Assembly: GCA_017853605.1 (NCBI GenBank) | Contig: JAFMJG010000004.1 | Coordinates: forward strand, 1 to 49,110 | Direction of reading: 5' to 3' | Length of the DNA: 49,110 nucleotides | Origin: a bacterium | Lineage (GTDB): Bacteria > Bdellovibrionota_C > UBA2361 > OMII01 | In this document: positions 7,101-48,951 of the stretch, piece after piece | Layout of the letters: each line of letters begins with the position of its first letter | Position numbering within the stretch: the first letter of the stretch is position 1 | Notes under the pieces: generated by a model | Told to the model about the DNA's origin: nothing | The model's database searches: none | Seen by the model: the letters and a program-made list of their open reading frames with translations, nothing else | Translations under genes and position numbers: made by a program

Positions 7101-10100
7101 GCTGTGGTGTGCGCAACAGCCGAGCGCCATACGACTGCCTCGTAGTGCTTGAGCGCCTCGCCCCGCACGTGCGACCAGCGCTTGAAGTCATCAATCTTGA
7201 GGTCTCTCCAATCTACTTGGTGGCTCTGCTCCCTCGCTGCGGCGTGCTCTGCGTCATTCGTGTTGAGGGAGAGGAGTCGGCGCTTGCTCTCGAGAATCGC
7301 GCGCAGCGCCTCAACGCCCCGCCGCTCCATGCGACGCTCCGTGCCGCCGAGCTCCCTCATGAAGGAGTTCTGCTGGTCGAGGAGCTCCCTCTGGCTGCTC
7401 ATGACGATCTCGTTGGAGGCGACAACCGCCTGTGCCGCGCCCCTCTCCCAGGACCACGCCTTAAAGAGGCGCTCCCTGTCGCCGTGTTGGACGGAGGAGA
7501 AGTGCTCGTGGTTGGTGCGGGTGCGGCCGAGTCGGCCCTCGAGGTCGATCTTGAGCTCGCGCACCCCGGTCAGCTGCTCTACAAGCCGCTCGCGCGCTGC
7601 GCGGTACTGCGCGAGCGCCTGTGATCCCTCAGAGAGGGCTCTCGACCCCTTCTCAGCAGAGCTGGCAACCATCTCGATAGCCTTGGCATCTGCTTCCCCA
7701 AAGGAGTTGCCGGGAAGGTGCCGCACGAAGCCGGAGAAGCCCTTGGGGGGCACCCGGTCATTTGAGTACTGAAACGAGATCCGCATCTTCTCATCGGAGA
7801 GCTCGTTGAGCGCGTCGTTGTAGAACTTCTTGCAGCTGTCAGGGATGCGCTGCATGGCGGCGTTGTACGCTGTCAGCGCCGCCTCAGACCCCTTCTTTTC
7901 GGCATACTCAAGGGTTGCCTCAGCCCACTCTGAGGCCGCCTTGGCCACCTTGGCCGTCTTGTCGCCCAACTCTACCGCTTTCTTGGCGACATCGGTCTGC
8001 ATCGCCTCATCATAGCGGCTGCGCGTCCAGTCGAGGCTCGCTCGCACCAGCCGTGAGGCGCCAGAGGAGTCAGCCAGCTGCTGCACGCTGTCGAAGGCAG
8101 AGTCCCGCCACTGCCCAAGCCGCTGGCCGACAGCATGGCTCGTGGAGGTGACGAACTCCACCATCTTGTCCTCACAGGTGCTCAGGAACCACGCGGTGTT
8201 CTCGTACCCCAGCGCCAGCGTGTGGGCCGCATCAGAGTCCTTGACGGCCTGCAGCAGCCTCTGCAGCTTCTTAACCTCTTCGCTGTCACGGATGCTCTCC
8301 GCTGTCTCTTCGATCTTCTTTTCGAGAGCCTCTACCAGCTTGGCGCCGCCTTCGCGGGCCTCCTGGGCCTTCACGAGCAGCACGTAACGGACAGTGTGAT
8401 GAGTGTCCCCGCGCTCAATCGCGCGGATCGCATTCTCAAAATCAGACTCGGCTACCTTGCCGCCGCCCTGAAGGAGCTTGCGGATGCTCTCTTCAGACGA
8501 GAAGACGCGGCCGCCAGCGAGGTCCGACTCAAGCGAGCCCGACAGCTGCCCAGACTCAGCCCTGCGGCCTGCCGCAGCCTGCCGGTAGAGGCCCTTGAGG
8601 ATGGTGCTGTGCGCCTCGCTCAGCTTGAGCTCCCGAATTTCGTAGAGCGCAACGTCACGGTTGCTCGGCTTGCCTGGAGCGGTCGGCTCGAGGCGCGAGA
8701 GCAGCGCCGCCACGCTCTTCGCTCCCTTGGCGAGGGGTCCGCTAGGGTCAATCAGACGTGCAGCCTCGGCACGGCTCGCCTCCTCTGCCTGCCTGCGCAT
8801 TAGGGCCTGCAGGTCGAGCCTCGCGAGCAGCTCCGGCGAAAGCCCGTCAGTCAGCTTGGCGATTTTTTTGTCGAGCTCGCGCTCCAGCGCCTTCGCCTCG
8901 CTCTCGTGCCGGGCGATCACTGCCGGATCGCCTGACTGGAGCGCAAAACTGCGCGCCAGCGATGCCTCTCCCAGCCGCGCCACAAAGGGCTGCGAGCCTG
9001 CGCCCCCAGAAGGGGCGTTCAGCTCCTCGGCGAGGCGCTTGCCGAGCGCCTCGAGGCCCTTGCTGTCCTCGGCGATGAGGCGCTCCATTTCGCGCCGCCG
9101 CACATCACGCGCCGCTGGAACCGGAGAGCCAAAGAGCGTCTTAAGATCCTGCTCGCCAGCAAGCAGCGACCCTGCGACACGAACCGTCAGGCTGCCGTCT
9201 CCATGCGTCTGCCGCAGGGCGAGAACCCGCTCCGCAAGCGATAGCCCGCCAGACGCCTTGCGGCACGACTCCAGGATCGTCGCTGCGTTGGCCTCGGTGA
9301 TGCCGAGGCCCTGAATCAGGTCGCTCTCGAGCCGCGCTCCGCGCGCTTGCTGCACGAGCATCGGCAGCGCCTGGACATCCGCTTTCTGAAGCGCTGTCCA
9401 GAGCTCGGCAGCGGCCATCTCGCCCCCTGGAAGCCCAAGCTGCTTGAGGATCTCAGGCTGCTTCGCCGTCACGAGGAAGACCTCGATGCGCGCCAGGAGC
9501 GCGGCACGGTCCCTGTTCTCTTCGTCAGGCGCGGCAGGGTCATACGCGAGCTTGTGGCGCAGCGCCTCAATCTGCTGCGCTGGCGGCAGGGGCTGGCCTA
9601 CCTGCTGCAGCACCCCCTCAAGCCGCTTATCGCCGGATGATGCCGCCCAAAGGGCCTCAATCGACGCTGCTGATTCCTGCGCTGGGTCACGCGAAAAGAT
9701 CCCCTCTACCTTCGAGCGCAGCTCCCCGGCTGTCTGTGTGCCGGTTGCAGAGGCCTCTTCGGCCGAAAGCTTCGCCGTTCGCGCCGGAACTGTCTGCAAG
9801 ACTGCGCTGAGGGCGGCGCTATCGGCGCCCTTGATGGCGCGCGCCTCATCGAGCGCCGAATAGGCCTCGCCGAAGGTGCGCTTGACCGCCATCCAGTCGT
9901 AGCGCTGGCTCGCATACTGGTCGAGCGACTTGTCGACGTACTTGCCCTTGAAGGCACGCTCAAGGCCATCATCGGAGAGCAGATCGCTTACCTGCTTGAT
10001 GGCCGCGTCCTGAGTCAAAGCCAGAGATGCCTGGCGATCGAGGGCCGCCGCCTTAAGCCTTATGGCGGTGTCAGCGAACTGCTTATTAATCCCTGCGGTA

Positions 10101-12193
10101 ATCGCGGTGATCTTCGCCTCGTGCTCGGTCACCTCGTCGGCCAATTCGGCCAAATAGGGCTTGTTAGCCAGCCTCTGTCCCCGGCTCTTCTCGATATCCT
10201 GTTGTAGCTCCTCCACCCGCACCTTGCGGAAGAACGCCTCGCTCGTGCCTGCCTTGATGAGCTCTCCAGTGAGCGCATCAACCTTCTCAATCGCGCGCAG
10301 CTTGACAGACAGCTCGCAGCGCATGCCGTCGGCAAGCGCCCCCTGGCGGGATGCGTGCGCCTGCTGGAATTGGGAGATCAGGGCGCGGTCGGCGCCGGGG
10401 TGCTCCTTCTGGCTCCTGATCGCATCAAGAAGCTCGGCATTGAGCACAGCGTAGTCAACCTGCAGGAGCGCATCACGAGCGTGCTCGCGTCCCGCCCCTT
10501 CACGTTCCGCCTGGACGCGCAGCACATTGAGCGCAGCAGCGCCGTCTTTTCTGGCAGCCGCCAGGGCCACGTCAAATCCCGGCAGGTCTCCGTACGTGGC
10601 GCCCATGGAGCTCACGATACGCGGTATCTCGCCGCGAGCGCCGGGGGAGCGCGTCTTCTCAAGGGCCTCAATCTCTTTCCGTCCCGACACTATTTTTTCA
10701 AGGCTGTCGTGAAGGTGCAGCAAGGGGTCCGGGCGTCCCTGGAGGATCGCGTCTTTCGTCGCCTCATCCGCGCCAAGGAACCGGCGGAGGTGCTTCTCTT
10801 CGCCGGTGTCTTGCTTGAGCAGCTTGAGCGCATCCGCGAGGCTCTTTCCCCTAAGATCTTTGAGCCTTGAGGCAAGCGCCCCAAGGAGCTTTGCCTCGCG
10901 CTCCGCATCCGGAACCCCCGAGAGGGACACCTCGGCATCGCTCAGCCCAAGCATCTCTTTTGAGATACGCTGGACCTCGCTGAAGCTGTTCTCGATCAAG
11001 ATCTTCTTGTCCGCCACCTCAAGCTGAACCCTGCGGGCTGACTCGGTGTCGAGCCGGGCGAGAATGATGCCCTGCTCAGCAGCCACCTGGCCGGTTAGCC
11101 TGGCGAGCTGCTCTGGCGAAAGGAGCTTGGCCTCCACGACCTGGCGCAGCACCTCGCGGTGCGCCTCTGGCGAAGCGCCCACCATGTCCCGCAGCTCAAG
11201 GATCAGGCTTCGCCCGGCGTGCTTTTCGAACGCGTCGAGGTACTTTGAAAGCTGCTCCTGGCCAACCGCCAGCTTGAGGGTTGAGAGAAACTTGATGGCG
11301 GCCTCGGAGGACCCGAGGCTCTCCACCTGTTTCTTGAGCAGCTCAGCCCCTTTTGGCCCCTGCATGATCTCAGGGGCGACCTTTGGGTTAAACTGGATGG
11401 CGTTAAAGAGGTCGCGCTTCTCCTCTGCCCGCCGCAGGAAGTCCTTGCGGTCGGCGTCGAGCCCATCGCTAGCGGCCTGTATCGAGGCGTTCACAGCATC
11501 AGAGAAGAGTCCTGCGGCGGGAGGGGGATCAGGGGTGGCGGCTGCCTCAACGGCTGCGAAGCGTGTGGTGAGCTCCTGCGCCAAGGTGCGCTCCATGACC
11601 TCGGTAGAGATGTTGAGCTTGAGGAGGGTGTCGCCTGCACTCAGGGCTGCGGCGATCTCTTTGGCAGCCTGGGCAACGGCTTCTGGCGAGCGCTGGCCCG
11701 AGGGCCCTCCCGCCGCTTGAAGCTGCTCTATCTTTTCGCTCAGGGACTCTGCAGCCTTCTCGCCGATAACGCTCGCAAGGGCACGAAAAAATGTGGTCTC
11801 ACGGATCGAGGCGCTCCTCTTCTTGCGCTCTTTCTCTGCCTCGTGGGCGATCATCTCGTTGTGCAGGTTTTCGACCCGGCGGCGCTGCTCCTCTGCCGCG
11901 TGCGCGGGAGCGGTCTTGCAGATCGCCGCGGCAAGGCCGAGGCAGATCTGGCGCTCCTGGGCGTAGAGCTGCTCCTCTATTCGCTGGTCAGCGGCGCGAT
12001 CCTGGCCGCTGTTGTGCCGGGCCCGCTCTAGCTTCGACTCGATCACCTTGCCGACTGGACTCGCGTCCTTGGGTTGGGAGAGTTCGGCGACTTCGGGAGC
12101 CAGGCCAGCCTCTTTCGCGGCGAGCTTATCCGGCGCGGCCTGAGGGGATTCCGCCGAGCTTGGGGACACGCTCTTGTTGAGGACTGAGGGCAC
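4190..12193 (-). CDS. Giant 2667-aa Ala/Glu-rich coiled-coil protein, unknown function
   Basis: I do not recognise this protein. It begins with GTG at 12193 and has no signal peptide. Residues about 1-1690 are almost entirely helical, rich in Ala, Glu, Leu and Lys, and carry at least one segment like an annexin-type repeat (around residues 290-340: GSSEAAIKFL, then FEKHAGRSLILELRDMVG). Around residues 1690-1775 there is a hydrophobic stretch (TAKVVVVVGASVFATPATGL and a second helix) that could insert in a membrane. A glycine-rich segment follows (about 1800-1880). Two copies of KPAGGxMxAGEQ lie in a flexible linker, then a Pro-rich hinge near residues 2070-2110. A long Glu/Ala/Arg coiled coil (about 2120-2280) and a basic helical C-terminus end the protein. 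The frame is unbroken and strand bias agrees with the neighbours. It could be a cytoskeletal scaffold or a large effector; neither is shown. Confidence 0.9.
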   Translation of the reverse strand: MPSVLNKSVSPSSAESPQAAPDKLAAKEAGLAPEVAELSQPKDASPVGKVIESKLERARHNSGQDRAADQRIEEQLYAQERQICLGLAAAICKTAPAHAAEEQRRRVENLHNEMIAHEAEKERKKRSASIRETTFFRALASVIGEKAAESLSEKIEQLQAAGGPSGQRSPEAVAQAAKEIAAALSAGDTLLKLNISTEVMERTLAQELTTRFAAVEAAATPDPPPAAGLFSDAVNASIQAASDGLDADRKDFLRRAEEKRDLFNAIQFNPKVAPEIMQGPKGAELLKKQVESLGSSEAAIKFLSTLKLAVGQEQLSKYLDAFEKHAGRSLILELRDMVGASPEAHREVLRQVVEAKLLSPEQLARLTGQVAAEQGIILARLDTESARRVQLEVADKKILIENSFSEVQRISKEMLGLSDAEVSLSGVPDAEREAKLLGALASRLKDLRGKSLADALKLLKQDTGEEKHLRRFLGADEATKDAILQGRPDPLLHLHDSLEKIVSGRKEIEALEKTRSPGARGEIPRIVSSMGATYGDLPGFDVALAAARKDGAAALNVLRVQAEREGAGREHARDALLQVDYAVLNAELLDAIRSQKEHPGADRALISQFQQAHASRQGALADGMRCELSVKLRAIEKVDALTGELIKAGTSEAFFRKVRVEELQQDIEKSRGQRLANKPYLAELADEVTEHEAKITAITAGINKQFADTAIRLKAAALDRQASLALTQDAAIKQVSDLLSDDGLERAFKGKYVDKSLDQYASQRYDWMAVKRTFGEAYSALDEARAIKGADSAALSAVLQTVPARTAKLSAEEASATGTQTAGELRSKVEGIFSRDPAQESAASIEALWAASSGDKRLEGVLQQVGQPLPPAQQIEALRHKLAYDPAAPDEENRDRAALLARIEVFLVTAKQPEILKQLGLPGGEMAAAELWTALQKADVQALPMLVQQARGARLESDLIQGLGITEANAATILESCRKASGGLSLAERVLALRQTHGDGSLTVRVAGSLLAGEQDLKTLFGSPVPAARDVRRREMERLIAEDSKGLEALGKRLAEELNAPSGGAGSQPFVARLGEASLARSFALQSGDPAVIARHESEAKALERELDKKIAKLTDGLSPELLARLDLQALMRRQAEEASRAEAARLIDPSGPLAKGAKSVAALLSRLEPTAPGKPSNRDVALYEIRELKLSEAHSTILKGLYRQAAAGRRAESGQLSGSLESDLAGGRVFSSEESIRKLLQGGGKVAESDFENAIRAIERGDTHHTVRYVLLVKAQEAREGGAKLVEALEKKIEETAESIRDSEEVKKLQRLLQAVKDSDAAHTLALGYENTAWFLSTCEDKMVEFVTSTSHAVGQRLGQWRDSAFDSVQQLADSSGASRLVRASLDWTRSRYDEAMQTDVAKKAVELGDKTAKVAKAASEWAEATLEYAEKKGSEAALTAYNAAMQRIPDSCKKFYNDALNELSDEKMRISFQYSNDRVPPKGFSGFVRHLPGNSFGEADAKAIEMVASSAEKGSRALSEGSQALAQYRAARERLVEQLTGVRELKIDLEGRLGRTRTNHEHFSSVQHGDRERLFKAWSWERGAAQAVVASNEIVMSSQRELLDQQNSFMRELGGTERRMERRGVEALRAILESKRRLLSLNTNDAEHAAAREQSHQVDWRDLKIDDFKRWSHVRGEALKHYEAVVWRSAVAHTTAKVVVVVGASVFATPATGLAVALAWNATDKTVRYATAQMDGWGCTRHFLIEGATDALLSGIAAIRIFKVRVEADPVFSALKNAAPVSKWGVRFNFFNTANKLNAGGAREVVFHAGQLKSGIKDMVASGGGYAQGGLLLEGAKYTGNVPAKVVEGALRKFFDLSAKEGTNVYQAIVKLPVSGFISGQLPSAIARGAIASSQLAPRGQPASTPPNPPRVAAQTFVPVGQTPGAPVATAKESKPAGGAMPAGEQPGTGVALAIENNQTKPAGGGMDAGEQQSSTVPVALAVMAEGLLEYARATLQKAGIEPTMPDLQQLNLMLDQIRNAISLQQVEEAATYVMELLSQWAPQQAEKGKGDTPRERPENPQGPVELAKAAPPAEELVEDMNDWGNVLRGLGRGSRSLIAVSRRNPPQPPPVVPPAPPAPVAPSSPPGPGRAPAGEGAPGPVMSLGEEETNSYVLELLRVQELERRRRAERETLLLEEIADAAARAAAEVNARAVALVEAHAIAAANAEAAKLAHADADSMANTTAQAQALSEAAALQGLQLAEVQRLQDVELIRALVEGERLRQQEAEELLLKEGEEERLRGEEAERAKVAERKMSREARAEAQHAEAAQLEQSAFKQPEPVGLKEAGATALSGEEAAVPSNEEAVGLQETGSITLKMGEPAAIEEAPQGISAEPAQSARLVEQQAAQAGELMPELLSITRLEEPGVLGEEPQSNAAQGTAARRSRTARRADTKEADEAATDRRLMLVEGGAQRHFVAAAEHPRMRESAGEEQSGEELAQGAPLGGIQHGEAAVIGQAQALAAGAIPLNPHGRTSAIEQIEAAMAAIEALDTAQGDEELEQREARLKKKRRSQDRLRAIIMQQLTSRRHEQLKKQRLLALLIALGISEKEYRELVARIGELEAHAKGERERSRRALVSPLARALAPRPAPIPPARKAPVLMREAEAAPQGRQIRRAELYVRMKE

Positions 12194-12546: not shown

Positions 12547-15096
12547 ATGAAGTGCGCCACTCCTGTTCGTATAGTCCTGTCTGCGGCAGCGGCACTATTT
12601 TCAGTCGCGGCGGCGGGCACAGAGGCCGACGCCCAGCCTAACCGGTACACGCCGGCGTTTTTGACCGGCCCCGGCGTGGGCGGGTCTCCACACGTCTCGG
12701 CCTTTACGAGCTCCACTGGGCTGATCGTGAGCTCGATCAACTTTTTCGCCTTTGAGGACTTCTTCCGCGGCGGAGCGACCGTCGTTGGCTGCGACGTTAA
12801 CGGCGACGGCACCCAGGACATCGTAGCCGGGGCGGGATTCGGTGGCGGGCCGCGCGTCTCCTCATTCGACGGCAAAAAGATGCAGATGGGTGTTCCTGCC
12901 CAGAGCGCCGTCATCAACAACTTCTTTGCGTATGCCATAACGTTCACCGGCGGAGTCTACGTGGGGTGCGCGGACATGAACGGCGACGGCATCGACGATA
13001 TTATCACAGGAGCCGGCGAGGGTGGTGGGCCGCACGTGAAGGTATTTGCCGGCCCCTCGGGCTCAGAGATCGCATCCTTTTTTGCATACGACACAACCTT
13101 CCCGGGCGGCGTGCGAGTTGCTGGCGGCGACGTGAACGGCGATGGCCGCATGGAGATCATCACCGGTGCCGGACCAGGAGGAGGCCCAAACGTCAGGGTA
13201 TTCTCGCCCTCAAACGGGTACGGGGCACCCCTGAGCTCTTTCTGGGGGGTCGATCCACTTTTCCGCAGCGGCATCTTCGTCGCATCCGGCGACGTTGACG
13301 GCAACGGCACCGACGAGATCATCGTTGCGCCTGGAGCGGGAGGGTCTCCCGTGCTTAACTTCTTCAACGGCGGAGGCACAGTCTTGAGGAGCTTCGAGGC
13401 CTTCACCCCCGGCTACCTGGGAGGCTTGACGGTCGGCGCCACATCGCGCAAGTTCGGCCCGCAGTTCGCGCAGATCTCGGTCGGCACGTTCGGCGCAGGC
13501 GCCTCGGTGCGCGTCTACCAGCCACACACATCGATTAACCCTATAACGAGCATTCAGGCCTACCAAAACTTTAACGGGCAGGTCCTCGTCGCTGGGTTCT
13601 CCCTCGACAACTCGTTGAGCTGGACGCCTACCCCAACGGTAACGCCGACGGCAACGAACACCCCGACTCCAACACACACCCCGACTCCCACTTCAACTCA
13701 TACTCCCACGCCGACGCACACGCCAACACCAACGTTTACTAGGACGCCGACGGCCACGCCGACTGCGACTAACTCCCCCACCGGAACGCCTCCGGCAACG
13801 AGCACGTCAACGCCGACGTTTACTGCGTCGCCGACCTTCACGGCGTCGCCGACGTTCACCGCAGTGGCGACGAACACCGGCACGCCGACGTTCACGGCGT
13901 CGCCGACGTTCACCGCGATTCCAACCCGCACCGTCACCGGCACGCCCACCACGGGCCAGACCCAGTGCTCGGACGGCATCGACAACAACGCCAACGGCCT
14001 GATCGACCTCGCTGATCCGGGCTGCAATGGCAGCAGCCAGACGCCATCCGAGAACGGTGCGCCGTCTACCTCCGGCGTCACCGTCTCGCTCGCCGGAATC
14101 TACAACAACGGGGATGGAACCTTCACCGCCTACATCAGCTACAACAACACCACCGGCCAGTCTGTGACGCTCCCGGCGGGGCTCGACTCGCTCACCAAGA
14201 ACTTCTTTGCGCCGTCACCGGCAAACCGCGGGCAGACGTCCGTATTCCTGCCAGGATCGAATCCAGCCGCCATCGCCATAACTTGGGACGGCCGGCCGCT
14301 CGTGTACTCGGTGGCGACATCGGGCTCCGTGCCCTCGATCCTAAACTTCAGCGGCACAAGCACCCCGGTGCTCTCGCTGGTTGAGCCGCAGGCCGAGTGT
14401 CTCCTGACCACAGACGGGACCATCTTCCTTGCGGTCATGGGGTACAACAATCCCAACGACTTTGAGATTAAGATCCCAGTTGGCACCCGGAACTTCTTCT
14501 CGCCCGGAGCGCAGGACCGCGGCCAGCCAACCTCCTTCTTCAAGGGGCTCGTCAAGGGCGCGTTCACGGTCGAGTCGAACGTGCTCCTTGAGTGGAAGAT
14601 TACCGGCAAGTCGGCGAAAGTCAGCTCCTCTACGCCGAGCTGCGGCTGTCCCGCAACAGCCGGCGTGGATATCCGCAAAGAGCTCAACGCCGAAGCGCTC
14701 GCGCTCAACAAGCTTGCGCAGCAGGCAGCGTCACTCATCAAGTCGGTCGGCACCCCTGACGCGCTGCGCAGCTTCGACGACGTGAAGAAGCGCGCTGACG
14801 GCAACCTCTCTGCGATTCAGTCGCTGACAGCCTCGATCCCTAACGTGATTGTAAGCTGCCCAACGACGCCGACAGGGTGCACCCGCATCGACAACCAGCC
14901 GTTCATCGACGGCGTGCAGGGCCAGCTCAACGTGGCGCTCCACATCGTGAAGCGCGCAACCGCGCGGGCGAACTTCCTCAAGACTGGGGCCACGGTCAGG
15001 AATGATCCACTCGTCGTCAAGGCGGAGAAGCTCTACAACGCTGGCGTGGCGACGCTGAAGCAGTACCCACGCTTCAGCACCTCGTGCCCGAGGTAG
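12547..15096 (+). CDS. Secreted FG-GAP propeller protein A with Thr-Pro stalk
   Basis: The 849-residue protein starts with a signal peptide (basic start, hydrophobic core, likely cleavage after ADAQ near residue 30). Residues about 30-355 form FG-GAP/VCBS-type propeller blades, with Ca-binding loops [27 protein letters not shown] and DVDGNGTDE, each followed by IxxGAGxGGGP-like strands. A Thr/Pro-rich stalk covers about residues 360-470. Then comes a [20 protein letters not shown] Ca/disulfide motif and a C-terminal domain with two beta-rich parts and a helical end containing Cys pairs ([17 protein letters not shown]). Such proteins are typically extracellular or surface-displayed and may mediate adhesion or ligand binding; no enzyme motif was seen. 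The next gene is a close paralog. Confidence 0.9.
13067..13484 (+). repeat. 418-bp tract identical to 15960-16377 in the paralog
   Basis: By direct base-by-base reading this tract is identical to 15960-16377 (constant offset 2893), with the first mismatch at 13485 (C) versus 16378 (A). Flanking coding sequence of the two paralogs shows frequent synonymous and amino-acid differences. It encodes propeller blades 3-4. Confidence 0.9.
13624..13956 (+). repeat. Thr-Pro low-complexity stalk region of protein A
   Basis: About 110 codons of degenerate short repeats encode [17 protein letters not shown] units. Several near-identical 18-21-bp units encoding PTFTAS occur toward the 3' end. Such tracts usually form extended, often glycosylated spacers in secreted proteins; glycosylation here is an inference. 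This is not a CRISPR array: there are no unique spacers and the frame is continuous. Confidence 0.85.
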
Positions 15097-15439: not shown

Positions 15440-18043
15440 ATGACGTACGCCACTCCCGTTCGCTTTATTGTTTCTGCAGCTGTAGCTGTATTCTCTGTGG
15501 CCGCGGCAGGCACAGACGCTGCAGCACAGTCTGACCGCTATACGCCAGCGTTTTTGACCGGTGCTGGCGAGGGTGGTGCCCCACACGTGACGGCTTTTAC
15601 GACCGCCACGGGGCTCGTCGTAAACTCCATGAACTTTTACGCCTTCGAGGAGTTCTTCCGGGGCGGAGCGACTGTCGTTGGCTGCGACGTGAACGGCGAC
15701 GGCACCCAGGACATCGTAGCCGGGGCGGGATTCGGTGGCGGCCCGCGCGTCTCCTCATTCGACGGCAAAAAGATGCAGCTCGGTGTTCCTGCCCAGAGCG
15801 CCGTCATCAACAACTTCTTCGCGTATGACGTGGCGTTCACCGGCGGTGTGTACGTCGGGTGCGCGGACATGAACGGTGATGGCATCGACGACATCATTAC
15901 CGGAGCAGGCGCCGGTGGCGGGCCGAACGTCCGGGTATTTGCTGGCCCCTCGGGAGCCCAGATCGCATCCTTTTTTGCATACGACACAACCTTCCCGGGC
16001 GGCGTGCGAGTTGCTGGCGGCGACGTGAACGGCGATGGCCGCATGGAGATCATCACCGGTGCCGGACCAGGAGGAGGCCCAAACGTCAGGGTATTCTCGC
16101 CCTCAAACGGGTACGGGGCACCCCTGAGCTCTTTCTGGGGGGTCGATCCACTTTTCCGCAGCGGCATCTTCGTCGCATCCGGCGACGTTGACGGCAACGG
16201 CACCGACGAGATCATCGTTGCGCCTGGAGCGGGAGGGTCTCCCGTGCTTAACTTCTTCAACGGCGGAGGCACAGTCTTGAGGAGCTTCGAGGCCTTCACC
16301 CCCGGCTACCTGGGAGGCTTGACGGTCGGCGCCACATCGCGCAAGTTCGGCCCGCAGTTCGCGCAGATCTCGGTCGGAACGAGCGGCGCAGGCGCGTTGG
16401 TGCGCGTCTACCAGCCACACATATCGATTAATCCTATTGCGAGCATTCAGGCCTACCAGAACTTTAACGGGCAGGTCCTGGTCGCCGGGTTTTCCCTCGA
16501 CAATTCCCTCACATGGACCCCAACACCAACGGTAACTCCAACGTCGACGCCGACCAACACTCCGACGCCCACGAGCACCCCGACGTCGACCCCAACAAAC
16601 ACCCCTACCTTCACAAGCACGCCAACGAGAACACCGACGGCAACAGCAACGAGCACGCCGACCTTCACAAGCACTCCCACGGCGACCCCAACTGCGACCA
16701 ACTCGCCGACAGGAACACCCCCGCCTACCAACACGTCAACTCCGACGTCTACGTCTACGGCAACGCCGACGTCAACTCCTACGTCAACGCCGACGCCCAT
16801 GTCCACGCCGGTGACTACGGGCACGGCGACATCGACGCCCACGCCAACTTCTACGCCAACGGCAACTCCAACCGGCACGGTGACGGGAACTCCAACCACA
16901 GGCACAACCCAGTGCTCTGACGGCATCGACAACAACGGCAACGGCCTGATCGACCTCGCCGATCCGGGCTGCAACGGCAGCAGCCAGACACCATCCGAGA
17001 ACGGTGCGCCGTCTACCTCCGGCGTTACGGTCTCGCTCGCTGGAATCTACAACAACGGTGACGGAACCTTCACCGCTTACATCAGCTACAACAACACCAC
17101 CGGCCAGCCTGTGACGCTCCCGGCGGGGCTCGACTCGGTCACGAAGAACTTCTTCGCGCCGTCGCCAGCGAACCGCGGCCAGTCCTCGGTGTTCCAGCCA
17201 GGATTCAATCCGGCGGCTATCAACATCACCTGGGACGGGCGGCCGCTCGTGTACTCGGTGGCGACATCGGGCGCAGTGCCCTCGATCCTTAACTTCAACG
17301 GCACAAGCGCCCCCGCTCTTGCGCTGGTTGAGCCACAGGCTGAGTGTCTCCTGACTACCGACGGGTCTATCTTCCTGGCGGTAATGGGGTACAACAACCC
17401 TAACGACTTCGAGATCAAGATCCCGGTTGGCACCAGGAACTTCTTCTCTCCAGGAGCGCAGGACCGCGGCCAGCCAACCTCCTTCTTCAAGGGGCTAAAC
17501 AAGGGCGCGTTCACGGTCGAGTCGAACGTGCTCCTCCAGTGGACCGTGACCGGCAAGTCAGCAAAGGCGAGCACTGCAACCCCGAGCTGCGGCTGCCCTG
17601 CCACCGCAGGCCTGGATATCCGCAAGGAGCTCAATGCCGAGGCGCTGGCTCTCAACAAGCTTGCGCAGCAGGCCGCATCCCTCATCAAGTCGGTGGGAAC
17701 TCCGGCCGCACAACGCAGCTATACGGATGTCCAGAAGCGCGCTGACAGCAACCTCTCGACTATCCAGTCGCTGACAGCCTCGATTCCAAACGTGATCGTG
17801 AGCTGCCCGGCGACGCCGACAGGGTGCACGCGCATCGACAACCAGGCGTTTATCGACGGCGTGCAGGGCCAGCTCAACGTGGCGCTTCACATCGTAAAGC
17901 GCGGCACTGCCAGGGCAAACTTCCTGAAGACCGGAGCAACAGTGAGGAACGATCCCCTCGTCGTCAAGGCGAACAAGCTCTACAACGCCGGCATGCTGAC
18001 GCTGAAGCAGTACCCACGCTTTAGCACCTCGTGCCCGAGGTAG
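15440..18043 (+). CDS. Secreted FG-GAP propeller protein B with Thr-Pro stalk (paralog of A)
   Basis: The 867-residue protein has the same architecture as its upstream neighbour: signal peptide (to about residue 30), FG-GAP propeller with four DxNGDG-type Ca loops (to about 355), Thr-Pro stalk (about 360-490), the [20 protein letters not shown] motif, and the same C-terminal beta plus helical domain ending in [12 protein letters not shown]. The stalk is about 20 residues longer than in A and is otherwise diverged from it, while blades 3-4 are identical at the DNA level. The same start context (GGGGATCAA before ATG) supports this ATG. The pair clearly arose by tandem duplication. Function is probably surface or extracellular binding; the ligand is unknown. 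Confidence 0.9.
15960..16377 (+). repeat. 418-bp tract identical to 13067-13484
   Basis: Second copy of the identical tract, in the same frame and domain position of the paralog. The sharp edges and lack of any silent difference inside suggest recent gene conversion or recombination between the tandem copies. Confidence 0.9.
16517..16909 (+). repeat. Thr-Pro low-complexity stalk region of protein B
   Basis: About 130 codons of [18 protein letters not shown]-type repeats. The unit order and codon choice differ from the stalk of A (more TST units, no PTFTAS block), showing that this part has evolved by repeat slippage rather than by the conversion that unified the propeller segment. Confidence 0.85.
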
Positions 18044-34391: not shown

Positions 34392-36245
34392 CTAGGCAGC
34401 AGGGAAGTAGAGGGATATGTTGGTCCCTGCCTGGCGCCTGGAGGCGAGCGTCACCGCGCCGCCATGCTTCTTCATCACCGACTTGGCCATCAGCATGCTG
34501 AGCCCGAGCCCCCGGCCCAGCTGGGTTCCCTTCGTTGAGAAGGATGCCTGCGGCACGCCAAAGTCCTCTCCAGGCGCTAGCCCCTCACCGTGATCGACAA
34601 TGCTGACGCGGCCATAGCTGCCCGGGGCTATCTCAAGAAGCTTTGCGTCTTCGGCGACCTGAACCCGATCCACGTGAATGACGATGAAACGCTCCGGCAG
34701 CCCCTGCATCGCGTCGATAGAGTTCTCGCACAGCTCCAGGAGAAGCTGCGCCACGGTAAAGTCGGCGAGCTCAACCTGGACATCCTCGTTGCAGACAAGC
34801 TCGAGGTGGCACTCGCCGCCATGCGTGCTTGCCAAAAGCTCCATGACAGCCTCGACGCAGGAGCGAAGCGACTTGCGGGTCCTCGCGCAGCCCTCATCGC
34901 CTGCCAGCGCGATCACGCGCTTTGAGAGCGCAAGCCCACGATTTGCCGCTTTCCGCAGGATGGTAAGCAGCTCCTCCACGCTGGATTCGCCGTCGCTGCC
35001 GGCCGTCTTCTGCTCGACCAGCGCCGCACACCCCAGGATTGATCCGAAAATCGTGTTGAAGTCGGCTGCAGAGGAACTCGCCAGCCGCGCGAAGGAATCC
35101 TCCCCGCTCGGCTGGTGAGGCAGCGCCCCCTCCCTGTCCGCTTCCCCAGGCGCCGATGGCCGGGCTGGCGAGAGGGGCCGCGCCGCTATCCACGTGGCCG
35201 CCTCTGCGAGCGATGCCGCCTCGTAGTCCGCCTTGGCGTCGCAGATGCCATCGTCCCCTCCCCGTCCCGTCCTGACCAGGACAGCCGCGCAGCCGCCATT
35301 TTTGCCGAGCTGGACATCAGAGCTCATGTCCCCCACCACAACACTCTGCGATAGGTCAACGTTCAGCTCGCGCTCTGCGCGCTTGAGGAAGTATGGGAAG
35401 GGCTTGCGGCATTCGCAGCCGTCGGCCTTCGAATGAGGGCAGAAGTAGATGCGATCGATGGCGCAGCCCGCCTTGGACGCCTGCCTCATCATCTCCCGAT
35501 TGACCGCGAAGAAGTCCTCGCGCGAAAAGTATCCCAGGCCGATGCCGGGCTGGTTCGTGACAACAACGACGCGGTATCCGCGCTCCTTGAGCGCCTTGAG
35601 CGCAGCAAAGCTCCCAGGGATCTCCCTGAACTTCCCTGGCTCGCTCAGGTACTCCACGTGCTCGTTGATGGTCCCATCACGGTCGACAAACACGGCGGGC
35701 CGGCGCTCGAAAGCCAGATGCTGCCCATCCTCGGTCCTCGCCGCAATCTCGATCCGCTCAATCGTGCCGGTGGTTGAGTGTCCGGCGCGAAACGGCACAA
35801 GCCTAACCTGCCCCCCGTGGCTCTCAACGATCTGCTTGGAGGAGAGCTGCTCGGCTGCGTAGTCGCCGGCCTTGATGTACAGGTCTGGCTTGAGGAGCTC
35901 CACGTTGAGGTTGTTGTTTCTCTCCGAGAAGACGAACACGTGGCCAACCGCCTGGAGCCCGGCAAGGACCTCCGCCCGCTGGCGCTCGCCGTTGATGGGC
36001 CTGGATTCTCCCTTGTTGGCCTTGACCGAGCCGTCCGAGTTGACCCCGACAAAGAGCACATCCACCTCTGCCCGAGCCCGCTCCAGGTACTCCACGTGCC
36101 CAACGTGGAGAATATCGAACACTCCCGAGGTAAATCCGACGCGCTTTCCCGCTGCCCGGTACCCCTCCCTCAGCGCGACGGCTGCCTCTCTGGTAACTAT
36201 CTTATTCATCATGCTGGCTGTCGGGTCCCGCAGGCTCTCCGTCAT
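34392..36245 (-). CDS. Fusion: heptose-P nucleotidyltransferase + heptose-bisphosphate phosphatase + histidine-kinase-like ATPase
   Basis: One unbroken 617-codon frame joins three modules. Residues about 13-165 are an RfaE2/HldE-C-type nucleotidyltransferase with FTSGVFDILHVGHVEYL (HxGH at 47-50) and IKAGDY. Residues about 183-350 are a GmhB-type HAD phosphatase: VFVDRDGTINE (Asp188, Asp190), VVVVTNQPGIG, the zinc set C269-x-H271 with C277-x-C279, and VVGDMSSD. Residues about 385-617 resemble an NtrB/hybrid-kinase core. The position expected for the phospho-acceptor His is Ala394 (AADFNTIFGSILG), while the ATP site looks intact: N508 (ENSIDAM), D551HGEG, FSTKG, and G577RGLGLSM. The first two modules are known steps to ADP-heptose for LPS core. 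The third is unexpected. The start is uncertain: the ATG at 36245 has AGGAGG directly abutting it, and Met12/Met13 (MNKIVTRE) fit the family start. Confidence 0.9.
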   Translation of the reverse strand: MTESLRDPTASMMNKIVTREAAVALREGYRAAGKRVGFTSGVFDILHVGHVEYLERARAEVDVLFVGVNSDGSVKANKGESRPINGERQRAEVLAGLQAVGHVFVFSERNNNLNVELLKPDLYIKAGDYAAEQLSSKQIVESHGGQVRLVPFRAGHSTTGTIERIEIAARTEDGQHLAFERRPAVFVDRDGTINEHVEYLSEPGKFREIPGSFAALKALKERGYRVVVVTNQPGIGLGYFSREDFFAVNREMMRQASKAGCAIDRIYFCPHSKADGCECRKPFPYFLKRAERELNVDLSQSVVVGDMSSDVQLGKNGGCAAVLVRTGRGGDDGICDAKADYEAASLAEAATWIAARPLSPARPSAPGEADREGALPHQPSGEDSFARLASSSAADFNTIFGSILGCAALVEQKTAGSDGESSVEELLTILRKAANRGLALSKRVIALAGDEGCARTRKSLRSCVEAVMELLASTHGGECHLELVCNEDVQVELADFTVAQLLLELCENSIDAMQGLPERFIVIHVDRVQVAEDAKLLEIAPGSYGRVSIVDHGEGLAPGEDFGVPQASFSTKGTQLGRGLGLSMLMAKSVMKKHGGAVTLASRRQAGTNISLYFPAA

Positions 36246-43073: not shown

Positions 43074-46000
43074 ATGGCATCGCCCAACCACCAGCAAGCA
43101 GCGGCACAGCTCTCGCTTCCATCGCTGCTTGAGACGTCCACTGTGGACCGCTTGGGGGCCTGTCGCCTCTCGCCGGCCCAGCAGGCAGGGATCGAGAAGC
43201 TAGGGAGTCTGTGGGGCAAGATCCTCGCCCAGCTCTCGCCGATAATCTCCCGCAACTCGACCGCCCTTGGGCCTCTGCGAGACACCATGCTGCGTGGCAC
43301 CTTCGGGGAGGAGCAGCCATTCCTCGCCAACTGGCCAGCCCTCGCGCAGGGGGCGCAGCGGCTTCGTGAAGGGAAGAGCCAGGATGCCAAGGAGGCCCGC
43401 GAGCTCCTCAACGGGCTCCACGAGACAGCCCTGCTGGCCTCGCTGCTCGGCTCCTACGGAACCGGCCCCTTCGTTGCCCACGCGAGCGCCAACATTGCAA
43501 AGGCGTTCTCTGGAGCCGGAGAGCTGCCATCTTTTGCGAAGCGGCTCTACCAACATGCCCTGCCGCTGCTCGCCGTCAACGCCCAGCTTCGGGAGTGCGG
43601 AATCGACGAGCTCTCCGCTGAGGCGCTCGCTGCTGGGCTGCAGAAAGAGCAGGCCCGGTTGCTTGAGGGCTTCGCGAAGAGCCGCGCCCCGCTTCACTCC
43701 AAGGAGCAGGTGCTTGTGGAGGAGGCTCTCTCGATACTTTCAGCGGATCCCCCGCTCGACTCGGCGCTCCTGGTGGCGACCGCTCCCAGCCACGCTCCCC
43801 TTCTTGCCGGGCGGCTGTCAGCGGCGCTGCGGGGGGCTCCAGCGGGATTTGTGCAGGTTGTCGGGGCGGCATTGGGAGATCTTCGCTCAACCGTAGGGGA
43901 TACCGAGCCGAAGGTGCTCGTCGTCTCGGCGCTTGAGATACCGCCCATCCAGACACCGGTCAGCCGTGTGCTCATCTACTCTCCACTCCTTTTGAATGGA
44001 TCCCGGATGCTGTGCCTCTCTCGCCCAGCTATGGAGGGGCTGGCGACGGCTTTTCCGTCGGCATCAGTTGAGGTGCTGCGCACCTCCTCCGACTCGTTTC
44101 AGGTTGATCGAGCGCTGTACGAGCAGTGCGCGCCCTCAATGCGCCTGCCATCGTTGCCTGGCCCCGCAGCTCCCCCGCCTTCACCTAGCGCGGCAGGGCC
44201 CTGTGCCCCTTCGCCGCAACAGCACGCCTCGACGACACCTCCGGCAGCCCGGCAACGATCCGCGTCGATAGCGATCACGCTCCCGAAAACCACGCAGGGC
44301 ACGCTCTTTGCCCCCGCTGAGATGGCTGCGGAGCCGGCGCTCTCCCTCCCCTCTGCCGCGCAGGGGAGGCCGTTCCCGCTGATTGATCCAGCAACGCTCC
44401 CAAAGAGCGTTGAGGAGCTCAATGCCCGCTTGGGCATCACCATGATCAAGCCCGCGCTTATACCCCGTGCTGACCAGCTTGAGGAGCTCTTTCGTCTCCT
44501 TGAGCTTCCCTCGATGCAGTACCTCCTCAAGGCAGAGACCGGATTTGGAAAGACCGTGATGGCCTCGCTCCTGATGGGAGTCAGGTTCGGAAACTCGCCC
44601 CTAACACCACAGGAGTGCCGGCGGGGATTCCGTGTGGCCTACGTGACCCCGAACGTCAACCTCTGCGCCCAGGCTAAGCGCGAGTTCCTCCTCTTCCTCA
44701 ACCTTGAGGACTCGGAGGTCGCTATTCTTCATGGCAAGGTGTCGCCCCAAAAGCGGGCGCAGATTATCGAGGACCAGCAGCTCAAGATCCTCGTCTGCAC
44801 GCCAGAGGCGTTCCTGCGCACGATAGCAGCGGCTTCCCGCGAGGCAGGGCACGACTCGCTGGCCTTCATGGTGCTCGATGAGTTTCAGACCGCAGAGGGC
44901 GATCACCCCATGGCACGCCTCGCCCGTGAGGCCCGCGCTGCTGGAGTGCCTATCTTTCCGCAGTCAGGAACCCCGGCCCGCAATGCGCAAGACCTGGCGC
45001 GGAAACAGGCGCTCGTCCCGATGCGCGGCGCACTGGTCCCGCGGACGATGCGGCCGCTCAAGACCCACGAGCTGCTGCCGGCATCCCTGCCTGCCCGGGT
45101 CCTGCGCCTCGCTGCAGAGCTGAACACCTTCTCGTTCATCCCCTATGTCACCGCCCGCGAGCAGCTCAAGAACGCCGAGGACGCCATCAAGCAGGCCACC
45201 GGTGCTGCCCCTCCAACGCTCTTTCCCTCCCGCATCAGGCTCACCCGCAAGCCGCACATCGAGAGCTTTGGGCCGCGGAGCTCCCAGTCATTCAAAAAGC
45301 TCAAGGCCGACTCACTGAGGCTTCGGACTCAGCTCAACGCCCTTCGCAGCGCCCTCGCGGAGCGCGGCGAGCAGCTGAGCGACACGGCCAAGCAGGCGCG
45401 CACCGATCTCCACCTCGCGTCGGTGAATATAGGCCGCATGTCGAGCCTCGTTTCGCGCGCATCGCTCCTTAGCTACCTCGGCAGCTTCGCGTTCCTGCAC
45501 AACGTGGCAGCGACCTGGATGGCCCACTACCTCGACTCACCCCGCCGGCGCGGCGCGTTTCCAGCCTCGCGGGACTTCTTTCTCAAGCCGGAATTCCGCT
45601 CAGTCTTCCGGGCCGTGGCTGAGGGGACGCCGTACATCCACCTGCTTCAGTCGCCGACGACGCGTGAGGCCCTCCAGGCGGCATTCGGCATGGATTTGAG
45701 CGCAATACCGGACGACGCCGCCCAGCGCAGGGCCCTCTTTCTCAGCTTGGCGCTGCAGGAGATGTCGTCACGGGCCGAGCCTGGCCATCCTAAGGAGGAG
45801 AGCCTCTTCGCGCGCATCGAGGATCTCATCCAGCGCGATGAGGCGCGCGGCATCCTCGTTTTCGCCGAGCCCCGCCACGTGGCAAAGTACCTCGCCCTCA
45901 AGATTCAGGCGCGCTTCGGCAGCCGTGGAATACGCTCCGCATTTGTCACCGGCGAGGGGGACGCCATCGCCGAGAGGTACGGCCCCTACCTGCAGTCCCT

Positions 46001-46385
46001 CAGGTCGGGCCCGCGCAACGCCCCGCGACGCACGCTCGGAAGCTGGGAGGAGATCCGCGAGGAGTTCCAGCGCCCTCAGGGGACCGAGGGCCCGCGAATC
46101 AACATTATCGTGGCGACCAGCAAGCTAGCCGTCGGCACGAACCTCTCGGCGGCAGAAGAGGCGCACATCTACACAATGCACGCTGACGCGCAGAAGCTTA
46201 TCCAGATGGTGGGCAGAGTGGGCAGGCCCGATGGCGACAACTTCTTTGACCGCGTCGGGCGCTGCTTCTACCACGTCACCCGCAACACCCCTGAGTGGTT
46301 CCTGTTCAAGAGCGCAATCCGCAAGTATCAGTGGATTCGTGACACGCTCTCCTCCTCTGCTGACTGGGGCGGGGAGCCGTCATAA
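43074..46385 (+). CDS. Large SF2 helicase with a long N-terminal region
   Basis: The 1103-residue protein is a superfamily 2 helicase or translocase. Residues 1-410 are a helical, Ala/Leu-rich region with a weak ATPase-like stretch but no motif I recognise, followed by a Pro/Ser/Ala linker (about 360-430). The motor spans about 450-1080: Walker A AETGFGKT (487-494), motif Ia VAYVTPNVNLCAQ, motif II DEFQ (602-605), motif III SGTP, a long charged insertion, then motif IV ILVFAEPRHVAKYL, motif V IIVATSKLAVGTNLS and motif VI QMVGRVGRP (from 1044). DEFQ replaces the usual DEAD/DEAH and the insert (about 700-880) is unusual. It converges on the Fe-S nuclease gene with a 6-bp overlap. Substrate and partner are unknown. 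Confidence 0.88.
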   Translation: MASPNHQQAAAQLSLPSLLETSTVDRLGACRLSPAQQAGIEKLGSLWGKILAQLSPIISRNSTALGPLRDTMLRGTFGEEQPFLANWPALAQGAQRLREGKSQDAKEARELLNGLHETALLASLLGSYGTGPFVAHASANIAKAFSGAGELPSFAKRLYQHALPLLAVNAQLRECGIDELSAEALAAGLQKEQARLLEGFAKSRAPLHSKEQVLVEEALSILSADPPLDSALLVATAPSHAPLLAGRLSAALRGAPAGFVQVVGAALGDLRSTVGDTEPKVLVVSALEIPPIQTPVSRVLIYSPLLLNGSRMLCLSRPAMEGLATAFPSASVEVLRTSSDSFQVDRALYEQCAPSMRLPSLPGPAAPPPSPSAAGPCAPSPQQHASTTPPAARQRSASIAITLPKTTQGTLFAPAEMAAEPALSLPSAAQGRPFPLIDPATLPKSVEELNARLGITMIKPALIPRADQLEELFRLLELPSMQYLLKAETGFGKTVMASLLMGVRFGNSPLTPQECRRGFRVAYVTPNVNLCAQAKREFLLFLNLEDSEVAILHGKVSPQKRAQIIEDQQLKILVCTPEAFLRTIAAASREAGHDSLAFMVLDEFQTAEGDHPMARLAREARAAGVPIFPQSGTPARNAQDLARKQALVPMRGALVPRTMRPLKTHELLPASLPARVLRLAAELNTFSFIPYVTAREQLKNAEDAIKQATGAAPPTLFPSRIRLTRKPHIESFGPRSSQSFKKLKADSLRLRTQLNALRSALAERGEQLSDTAKQARTDLHLASVNIGRMSSLVSRASLLSYLGSFAFLHNVAATWMAHYLDSPRRRGAFPASRDFFLKPEFRSVFRAVAEGTPYIHLLQSPTTREALQAAFGMDLSAIPDDAAQRRALFLSLALQEMSSRAEPGHPKEESLFARIEDLIQRDEARGILVFAEPRHVAKYLALKIQARFGSRGIRSAFVTGEGDAIAERYGPYLQSLRSGPRNAPRRTLGSWEEIREEFQRPQGTEGPRINIIVATSKLAVGTNLSAAEEAHIYTMHADAQKLIQMVGRVGRPDGDNFFDRVGRCFYHVTRNTPEWFLFKSAIRKYQWIRDTLSSSADWGGEPS

Positions 46386-47882
46386 GAGCGGCGTGCGCCG
46401 GGGCCTCTTGAGCTGCGAGAGCATCTCGGACGCTGATACTGGCCACTCCTCCTTGACATGCAGCGGGGCATCAGGGCAGAGCGGCGCCTGATTGCAGCCG
46501 TCACACCGCTCCTTGGCGAGGCCCGAAGGTGCCCACCTCTCTATCTGGGTCACGGGGGGCCAGATGCTCGAGAACTTGCCGGCCTTGGCGGCGAGCCTGG
46601 CCCGCAGGCCCTGCACAAAGGTGTCCAGATCGAGGTCAGCGGCGCACACCGGACGGAAGCGGTACGGCGCGGAGAGCCCCTCGCCGGCGATGTAGGCATC
46701 ACCGAGGAACACCATGTCGGCGGTCAATTCTTTCGGCAGCTGGGGCAACGGCCGGTGCGCGCGGCCAAAGGCCCGCTTAATCTCCTCGTCAAAGCGCTGG
46801 AAGACATCCCGATAGCGCTGCAAGAGGTAGAGCGCGTAGTGCTTGAGCTGCACGAGGTGCTCCTCCTGCGCCTCAATCGCCGGCTTGCCGGAGAACTCGT
46901 CGAGCCGATTAGTCTTCCAGTCCATCGCAACGAGCCGCGGGTCCCCTGCCGGAGTGAACGTGAGGTAGACGAAATCGAGAACTGCCTTCACCCGAAACGA
47001 TATGCGAGCCCCAAGGCCTCGCTGAATAAGCTCCTTCACCGGCGGCCGCGCAACGGGGACCTCGATCTCGTAGTACGGGATCGACAGCCCGCCCAAGCCC
47101 AGGATCTCAAATGAGTCATGCTTCGCGTAGCTGATGTTCTTCTCCTCCACCTCAAGAACCAGCGCTGGATCGATCGCCTTCAGGCCGCCAGGGGGCACAA
47201 GGTGCCGAGGATCGTCCTGGAAGGCCCCGTCGCGGTCGAGGTAGAAGATCTCGTGCCAATTGTTCAGCGCCTGAACCAGCACCTCCCGATAGCGCTTGAA
47301 CGACTGGTGGTCGGGGGATGTCTCAGGAAGCGCAACGTGAGCTGGGCTTGCGCTGCCAACGAGCAGGTGCTTGAGCTTTAGGTGCTCGCGAAACCTCGGG
47401 TGGTCACGATCAGACCTGCCGTTTGGGAAGAAGTCATCCCACGAGGCTCCCTCCATGAAGTCGAACCGCTCAGCGGCCGACTGCAAAATCTGCTCAAAGT
47501 TGTAGGCGGCTGGCGCCTTGAGAACCCGACCCTCGGGATTAAGCTTCTCCCGATGGGCGTCGAGCACCCGGCGAATCGCCTCGTGCACGACCGATCCTGC
47601 GCCCCCAAGGTACGAGGACAGCGAGCGAAGCAGGTGCTGCTCATCGGTGCTGATGCCCTGGGCGAGGCCGCTTGAGAGGTACCACGCACGTTCACACTGC
47701 TCCTGGACAACGAGGCTCGTGTGCGACTCATCGATCACCCGATTGAAGCTTGCGTCCGCTTTTATGTCGGCAAAATCTACGCTGCCCGCATCGCGCGGCA
47801 GGGACAGCCCGAGCTGGTCGAGGGTTACACAACCCCGGCCCGCAAGGCCATCCTGCTTAAGCTGTGAACTGCTCGAAGCCAC
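46380..47882 (-). CDS. RecB-type PD-(D/E)XK nuclease with predicted [4Fe-4S] cluster
   Basis: The 500-residue protein has the AddB/Cas4/Dna2-type Fe-S nuclease layout. One cysteine lies near the N-terminus, Cys63 in QEQCERAWYLSSG, and three at the C-terminus, C460-x2-C463-x5-C469. Between them sits the nuclease core: GSVVHEAI (His100), FRVKAVLDFVYL (Asp303), VAMDWKTNR (Asp321, Lys323) and the QxxxY-type VQLKHYALYLLQ (Gln345, Tyr349). No helicase domain is fused. Such enzymes cut single-stranded DNA ends. It is a separate 500-residue gene convergent with the SF2 helicase, and follows the DapF-like gene by 97 bp on the same strand. Confidence 0.87.
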   Translation of the reverse strand: MASSSSQLKQDGLAGRGCVTLDQLGLSLPRDAGSVDFADIKADASFNRVIDESHTSLVVQEQCERAWYLSSGLAQGISTDEQHLLRSLSSYLGGAGSVVHEAIRRVLDAHREKLNPEGRVLKAPAAYNFEQILQSAAERFDFMEGASWDDFFPNGRSDRDHPRFREHLKLKHLLVGSASPAHVALPETSPDHQSFKRYREVLVQALNNWHEIFYLDRDGAFQDDPRHLVPPGGLKAIDPALVLEVEEKNISYAKHDSFEILGLGGLSIPYYEIEVPVARPPVKELIQRGLGARISFRVKAVLDFVYLTFTPAGDPRLVAMDWKTNRLDEFSGKPAIEAQEEHLVQLKHYALYLLQRYRDVFQRFDEEIKRAFGRAHRPLPQLPKELTADMVFLGDAYIAGEGLSAPYRFRPVCAADLDLDTFVQGLRARLAAKAGKFSSIWPPVTQIERWAPSGLAKERCDGCNQAPLCPDAPLHVKEEWPVSASEMLSQLKRPRRTPLL

Positions 47883-47979: not shown

Positions 47980-48951
47980 CTAGCGCACGAGGTAGAAGCG
48001 GCGGTTAACGGCGTAACGCGGGGCCTCGTACGAGCTGTTCAGCTCGCCCCTCAGCTGCACCGGCCCAGAGAGGTACACTCGGGCGGGAGACATGCCGCGA
48101 ATGGACGGCTCCGTGCGGACCTTGATCTCGATCCCGCTGGGCTGCTGTATCGACTCAATGCCGCAGGCGTGCCCATCATCGCGCGCCACAGCGAGGGCCA
48201 CTGCCGCCGCTCCAGATCCCGTCTCGTCAATGCACACGTCGCTCTTTGTCACGTATGAAACCGGCTGAATCTTTCGCTGCCCGCCCTGATCACTCCACCA
48301 CACGAGGCTGAAGGCGGGACAGGACTGCAGGCCCAGCTGCTGGCGGGCGGCAACGATACGGCGGAACAGCGTAAGCCGCGATCGGACGAATGGAACCTCG
48401 CTCTCTGGAATGAGGACCTGGGTCATCCCCTCAAGGAAGACTAAGTCGCAGCGGCACTCCTCGTCATCAAACTTGAGCGGCAGGCTGCGGTGGATCCGCA
48501 CGGAGCCTGCGTCCGCCATCTCAAGCTCAACGTGCCACTGGTCGCCAGCCGCCCACACCGAAGCCTGCATAATTTTTTTGGTCCCTGACACCTCAAGGGG
48601 GAAGGAGATACACTCCCTGCTTACCTTGACGAGATCCATGTGCGCAAAAGGGATCGCCTTTCTGTCCCTGCAGTACAGGTCCGCGATTAAGGCAGCCACC
48701 GAGCGAACGGTATTCGGGCTGAACTCGCCACCGATCATCTGCACCCGCACGACAGCCCGATCTCTCCTTGTGCGCTCGAGGACTGCTCCCTGTTCAAAGT
48801 GAGGGTAGCGGCTGCGAATGACCTGATCGAGGCGCCCGTAGGAGCTGCGGCCCACCTTCCTGTTGCAGAATACGAAGGTGTCGTTGCCTCCGGGGTAACA
48901 GTCAAAGAGCAGAGAGGAGCCCTCGAAAACAGCGCTGTAGAGATCGTCCAT
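47980..48951 (-). CDS. DapF-fold protein lacking both catalytic cysteines
   Basis: The 323-residue protein fits the diaminopimelate-epimerase fold, closer to the CntK/histidine-racemase style than to DapF. It has GGNDTFVFCN near residues 21-30, the first active-site loop MIGGEFSPN (usual M-x-GxEFCGN; Cys replaced by Ser78), the second loop CIDETGSGAAAVALA (usual CGSG/CGTG; Cys replaced by Thr244) and QQPSGIEIKV. Asn80 is kept. It is therefore probably not a racemase; a dehydratase, isomerase or binding role is possible. It lies 97 bp before the Fe-S nuclease gene on the same strand. No typical Shine-Dalgarno is seen before the ATG at 48951. Confidence 0.7.
   Translation of the reverse strand: MDDLYSAVFEGSSLLFDCYPGGNDTFVFCNRKVGRSSYGRLDQVIRSRYPHFEQGAVLERTRRDRAVVRVQMIGGEFSPNTVRSVAALIADLYCRDRKAIPFAHMDLVKVSRECISFPLEVSGTKKIMQASVWAAGDQWHVELEMADAGSVRIHRSLPLKFDDEECRCDLVFLEGMTQVLIPESEVPFVRSRLTLFRRIVAARQQLGLQSCPAFSLVWWSDQGGQRKIQPVSYVTKSDVCIDETGSGAAAVALAVARDDGHACGIESIQQPSGIEIKVRTEPSIRGMSPARVYLSGPVQLRGELNSSYEAPRYAVNRRFYLVR

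Follow-up and report, generated by a model that had tools for sequence, protein, structure and literature searches.

The helicase and nuclease genes

The window, i.e. the whole 49,110-nucleotide stretch of DNA analysed here, comes from a 3.0 Mb genome (220 contigs, 97% complete) of an uncultured freshwater bacterial lineage. Two ORFs, both real and intact, converge in it and overlap by their last 6 bp, as the initial annotation had described. That annotation had also proposed an SF2 helicase with a DEFQ box for one gene and a one-plus-three cysteine layout for the product of the other, and both proposals were confirmed. The features of the locus are as follows.

43074..46385, + strand: Hef/FANCM-type SF2 helicase, 1103 aa, ATG start (ORF; Pfam; profile match to 1wp9)
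43152..44141, + strand: helicase residues 27-356, putative degenerate duplicate of the Hef helical insert and second RecA-like domain, without Walker A (AF2, Foldseek, VIA-align)
44514..44990, + strand: RecA1 domain, residues 481-639 (Pfam DEAD 481-639)
near 44538-44555, + strand: Walker A TGFGKT, in RecA1 (invariant T489, G490, G492, K493)
44877-44888, + strand: DEFQ box, residues 602-605, in RecA1 (invariant D602, E603, Q605)
45051..45773 (approximate limits), + strand: helical insertion between the RecA domains, with family motif FRSVFRAVAEGTPYIHLLQ (hhalign, MAFFT alignment of distant members)
45786..46238 (approximate limits), + strand: RecA2 domain with motif VI, Q1044...R1051 (Pfam Helicase_C; invariant Q1044, G1047, R1048, R1051)
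46380..46385, no strand: 6-bp tail-to-tail overlap of the helicase and nuclease genes (ORF ends)
46380..47882, - strand: stand-alone Fe-S RecB-type PD-(D/E)XK nuclease, 500 aa, GTG start (ORF; PF12705; AF2 model)
46476..46505, - strand: C460-x2-C463-x5-C469, three predicted Fe-S ligands (invariant in 6/6 sequences)
46914..46922, - strand: DWK (D321-K323), catalytic (D/E)xK motif (invariant columns)
47694..47696, - strand: Cys63, first predicted Fe-S ligand (invariant in the five sequences covering that site)
47980..48951, - strand: DapF-fold-like gene, 323 aa, upstream of and co-directional with the nuclease gene (weak CntK match)

The helicase matched Pfam DEAD, Helicase_C and ResIII over their cut-offs, and its SF2 motifs (Walker A, DEFQ and motif VI, QMVGRVGR) are intact, with key residues invariant across orthologues. 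The view that this protein lies outside characterised families did not hold, as it falls in a recognisable SF2 group, Hef/FANCM. With a profile built from six orthologues, the best sequence match in the PDB was Pyrococcus furiosus Hef (1wp9, E 3e-25), with RIG-I and FANCM lower. Among NCBIfam models, Hef PRK13766 likewise ranked first for the helicase part, both in the window protein and in proteins from genomes G001, G008, G043, G012 and G019, by a wide margin in the latter five. The Hef-type SF2 core with its helical insertion is therefore present according to both profile and PDB match. The XPF/ERCC4 nuclease and HhH domains that Hef carries in the same chain gave no Pfam match up to E 1, and the window protein scored 39 against the NCBIfam Hef model, whose cut-off is 610. 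We thus consider it a Hef-type motor, not a Hef.

Its N-terminal 400 residues, initially left unassigned, could be given a tentative identity from a predicted structure of modest confidence (AF2, mean pLDDT 65, shallow alignment), in which a helical part is followed by a RecA-like fold lacking Walker A. Foldseek returned FANCM and Hef as top matches to this model, and VIA-align superposed residues 27-356 on Hef 208-486, i.e. the insert and RecA2 (Z 13.0, 255 residues, rmsd 5.3). The N-terminus thus looks like half of such a motor, duplicated and degenerate (half-Hef). At the sequence level the duplication was not significant by hhalign (probability 0.6%), so that the claim depends on the predicted fold.

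The nuclease matched PDDEXK_1 (PF12705) with 31.2 bits, for a cut-off of 22. Its H100, D303, D321-W-K323 and Q345 are invariant in the orthologues covering them, down to 24% identity, while position 349 is a tyrosine, replaced by histidine in one orthologue (G010). Together, H100, D303, D321-K323 and Q345-x3-Y349 form an intact RecB-family active site, and with the four cysteines C63, C460, C463 and C469, invariant wherever covered, the whole set of traits of RecB-type Fe-S nucleases is found in this protein. A search of the PDB with the nuclease profile gave no meaningful match, so that structure comparison was needed; the AF2 model, of low confidence (pLDDT 58), best fitted the RecB-type proteins ACE1, AdnA, RecB, AddB, Dna2 and MGME1 (VIA-align Z 9-12). 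The NCBIfam Cas4 profile did not match the window nuclease. In G011 the nuclease seemed to be part of a giant fusion protein, which was rejected as an artefact of N stretches.

Because convergent genes are not co-transcribed, the window pair offers no operon evidence. An Rfam search of the window gave no matches, and promoter and terminator patterns near the pair were no more frequent than in shuffled sequence.

Linkage of the two genes in the phylum

Of the 45 phylum genomes analysed, few and incomplete as they are, 6 have an orthologous nuclease, and in every one of these the orthologous helicase lies convergently on the nuclease contig. The initial annotation would have been refuted by homologues of the two genes occurring independently of each other, and this co-occurrence does not refute it. 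Five of the six genomes belong to one genus (5/12 genus genomes), where the locus is the same and syntenic: RNase HII, YraN, usually a cytochrome-c-peroxidase-like gene, the pair, and, in three genomes, the DapF-like gene. The latter adjoins the nuclease gene in G007 and G002 as well as in the window, and a role for it in the pair is doubtful; the window protein (47980-48951) weakly matches the histidine racemase CntK (E 2e-4). The sixth genome, G019, comes from another family, and in it the pair is kept at ~24% identity among unrelated flanking genes. Gene ends of the orthologues overlap by 4-26 bp, lie 57-99 bp apart or, in G010, are 2.85 kb apart, as two genes are inserted there between helicase and nuclease, the pair being still convergent.

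Divergence of the helicase was correlated with that of the nuclease (r 0.94; five genus members, giving ten pairs that are not independent), and values obtained with the neighbouring housekeeping genes RNase HII and LOG were lower (r 0.59-0.80). The initial annotation had linked the two genes by proximity only. Proximity was verified, and the co-occurrence in 6/6 genomes, the different flanks in G019 and the co-divergence take the link beyond it.

It might be argued that the two neighbours are unrelated and have stayed together by chance, rearrangement being slow, since the genes are convergent, not an operon, and five of the six cases amount to one event, the genus locus being syntenic. Yet G019 has retained the pair among unrelated flanks and G010 despite its insertion, and a fused or adjacent nuclease in as many lineages of the helicase family as described below would arise by chance with a probability of ~1e-7 (7/9 lineages, for an assumed nuclease gene frequency of 1.5%). 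We hold this explanation to be very improbable. Rather, one gene probably supplies the motor and the other the nuclease of a single enzyme pair that processes branched or stalled-fork DNA.

Relatives of the helicase and their nuclease partners

With the helicase profile, distant members of the family were found in genomes devoid of the window pair, and membership was supported by hhalign over motor and insert (E 1e-19 for G043, E 4e-23 for G001). At E 1e-25, among 382 genomes, most of them outside the phylum, and with the best three candidates scored per genome, the family was seen inside the phylum only.

Several of these helicases are accompanied by a nuclease of another kind. In G001 and G008, RecJ (DHH, DHHA1 and RecJ_OB domains) is fused in frame to the helicase, producing RecJ-SF2 helicase chains of ~1270 aa (L054:6881-10699 and L055:3787-7599) in sister species without the window pair; in G009 and G004, too, one open frame holds both the helicase and a RecJ match. 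RecJ is separate in G026, where its stop overlaps the frame in which the helicase begins. The helicase of G043 is accompanied by a co-directional Fe-S nuclease of 464 aa with DxK, QxxxY and CxxCx5C motifs, whose alignment with the window nuclease is weak (hhalign probability 9%), and in G012 a DnaQ/RNase-D-type exonuclease gene lies 18 bp downstream of the helicase. No nuclease neighbour was found beside the family helicase of G027 and G040, and the G020 and G034 loci, cut by contig ends, were left out of the informative lineages. Altogether, a fused or adjacent nuclease of one of three unrelated folds is found in 7/9 informative lineages of the helicase. Poor resolution of the deep branches in the helicase tree makes the number of independent partner events approximate. 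In three families (G019, G043 and G040), ABC-exporter-like divergent genes adjoin the Hef-like helicase (L026:11394-13433, L056:4069-6648 and L102:1-1900); considered as a possible third component, they proved to be alike only around the P-loop.

The Fe-S pair and a RecJ fusion were not found together in any member of the genus. A separate housekeeping RecJ is found in most of its members, among them all five that have the pair, and RecQ is also present, so that the pair is not the sole option for resection; its being a replacement for RecQ or RecJ was rejected, both genes being present.

Helicase and nuclease genes together are a frequent recipe of defence systems, and the pair could be an anti-phage module, in which the helicase would sense or unwind invading DNA and the nuclease degrade it. 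Its patchy distribution in the genus (5/12 genomes) and the faster evolution of both genes relative to neighbouring housekeeping genes are in line with this. So is a likeness of the G012 partner exonuclease to the C-terminal part of BREX BrxHI, a helicase with a DnaQ-type exonuclease, although the helicase of BrxHI belongs to another SF2 branch and no BREX genes were seen. Against it, PADLOC returned nothing for the nuclease and generic matches only for the helicase, none of its families fitting the pair; no nuclease relatives were found in phages, plasmids or IMG/VR, which leaves a phage or plasmid origin without a match; within the genus the locus keeps its synteny, next to housekeeping genes; and no defence genes were identified among the scanned neighbours. 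Defence therefore appears unlikely to us. The initial annotation had envisaged an undescribed module for DNA-end processing or defence: the notion of one DNA-processing unit is probably right, given the 6/6 linkage and the co-divergence, and that of defence gained no positive evidence.

Comparison with known systems and proposed mechanism

The pair agrees in full with none of AddAB, RecBCD, Cas4 or Dna2, as initially annotated, given its SF2 motor, separate genes and 500-aa nuclease. With AddAB, AdnAB and RecBCD it shares a RecB-family nuclease fold, an AddB-like Fe-S layout and the logic of helicase plus nuclease, but in those enzymes the motor is SF1 (UvrD-type) and shares its chain with the nuclease. 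The Cas4, ACE1 and Dna2 nucleases are of the same RecB-fold group, and the best VIA-align matches were ACE1 (Z 12.2) and AdnA (Z 11.6). Cas4 is, however, a small single-domain protein usually found with cas genes, whereas the window nuclease has long N-terminal and insert regions, and no CRISPR, Argonaute or SF1 helicase partner was seen.

The genus may have lost AddAB, and the pair might then be its substitute, as the main enzyme resecting double-strand-break ends. No convincing AddA- or AddB-size gene was found in the genus (G000-G011), while such genes occur in most of the phylum's other families: PF12705 matches of AddB or AddA size were obtained in most other families and in 0/12 genus genomes, save a weak one in G004 (1197-aa frame), and a UvrD search that recovered AddA in the control G012 (1077 aa) found no match in ORFs >1000 aa of nine genus genomes. 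The PF12705 genome search is nevertheless lossy, since it missed the window nuclease itself. Moreover, related helicases coexist with AddB-size genes in G012, G026 and G027, sister species having neither AddAB nor the pair must depend on other enzymes, and RecQ and RecJ are available. A main role of this sort thus seems quite improbable; as the genus seems to lack AddAB, some of the resection may fall to the pair. A candidate split AddAB-like unit at C17 of G000 was rejected, as it consists of an IGHMBP2-like SF1 helicase and a Cas4-like nuclease, encoded ~5 kb apart in the same genome (L077:3587-6247 and 10939-11709).

Hef and FANCM have been studied in archaea and eukaryotes. Compared with FANCM and XPF, the window helicase has a similar helicase core and insert fold, and its N-terminal half recalls the degenerate helicase of XPF, but it lacks ERCC4, and its single chain holds a complete, intact motor besides the degenerate half.

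The nearest characterised analogue is the archaeal Hef-HAN system of Thermococcus kodakarensis, where Hef interacts with and stimulates the RecJ-family exonuclease HAN, at stalled forks (PMC5717133). Both systems have a Hef-type SF2 core and a separate exonuclease, which in the window would, as judged from linkage, likewise be dedicated to the helicase. The partner in the sister species is also of the RecJ family, and its presence in one chain with the helicase makes the comparison with Hef-HAN direct. On the other hand, archaeal Hef has an XPF-type nuclease domain, not found in the window helicase, and the window system is bacterial, with a partner that is RecB-fold Fe-S and not DHH.

These comparisons bring us to a broader reading, to which we give an even chance: that the family performs a bacterial Hef/FANCM-like fork processing with an exchangeable nuclease (Fe-S RecB-type, RecJ fused or separate, DnaQ-type), one system per genome. 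As part of this reading, the Fe-S version would, with equally balanced chances, be a new kind of two-gene enzyme; in the open-access library searched, no paper was found that deals with a Hef-type system in bacteria having nucleases dedicated to it.

Of the roles considered, action on stalled forks or on branched DNA of other kinds is the likeliest for the pair. In the mechanism that we propose, the motor would be a bacterial Hef/FANCM-type SF2 translocase without an XPF-type nuclease domain, to which the RecB-fold Fe-S nuclease would be supplied in trans. The helicase would bind branched DNA, such as a stalled fork or a recombination intermediate, and unwind or regress it, which would expose a single-stranded end. 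The Fe-S nuclease would then grip the exposed strand and degrade or trim it, which would allow the fork to restart or recombine. The N-terminal half-Hef would probably contribute extra DNA or partner binding, by comparison with the dead helicase part of XPF. The fold-family assignments, the intact active sites, the conserved linkage and the presence of other nucleases in the corresponding place beside related helicases are what the analysis shows; physical interaction of the two proteins, their substrate and polarity, and a part in fork repair are what we infer for the pair. Natural nuclease swaps on one motor family would reveal the activities required by a motor that processes forks, and from the natural RecJ-helicase fusions direct contact of motor and nuclease is predicted.

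Elsewhere in the window, an ORF of 2667 aa occupies 4190-12193 (- strand), and two FG-GAP repeat proteins, of 849 aa (12547-15096, + strand) and 867 aa (15440-18043, + strand), follow one another and look like a tandem duplication. At 34392-36245 (- strand), a 617-aa chain matches cytidylyltransferase-like, HAD hydrolase and HATPase_c domains, an odd fusion that is kept in the genus.
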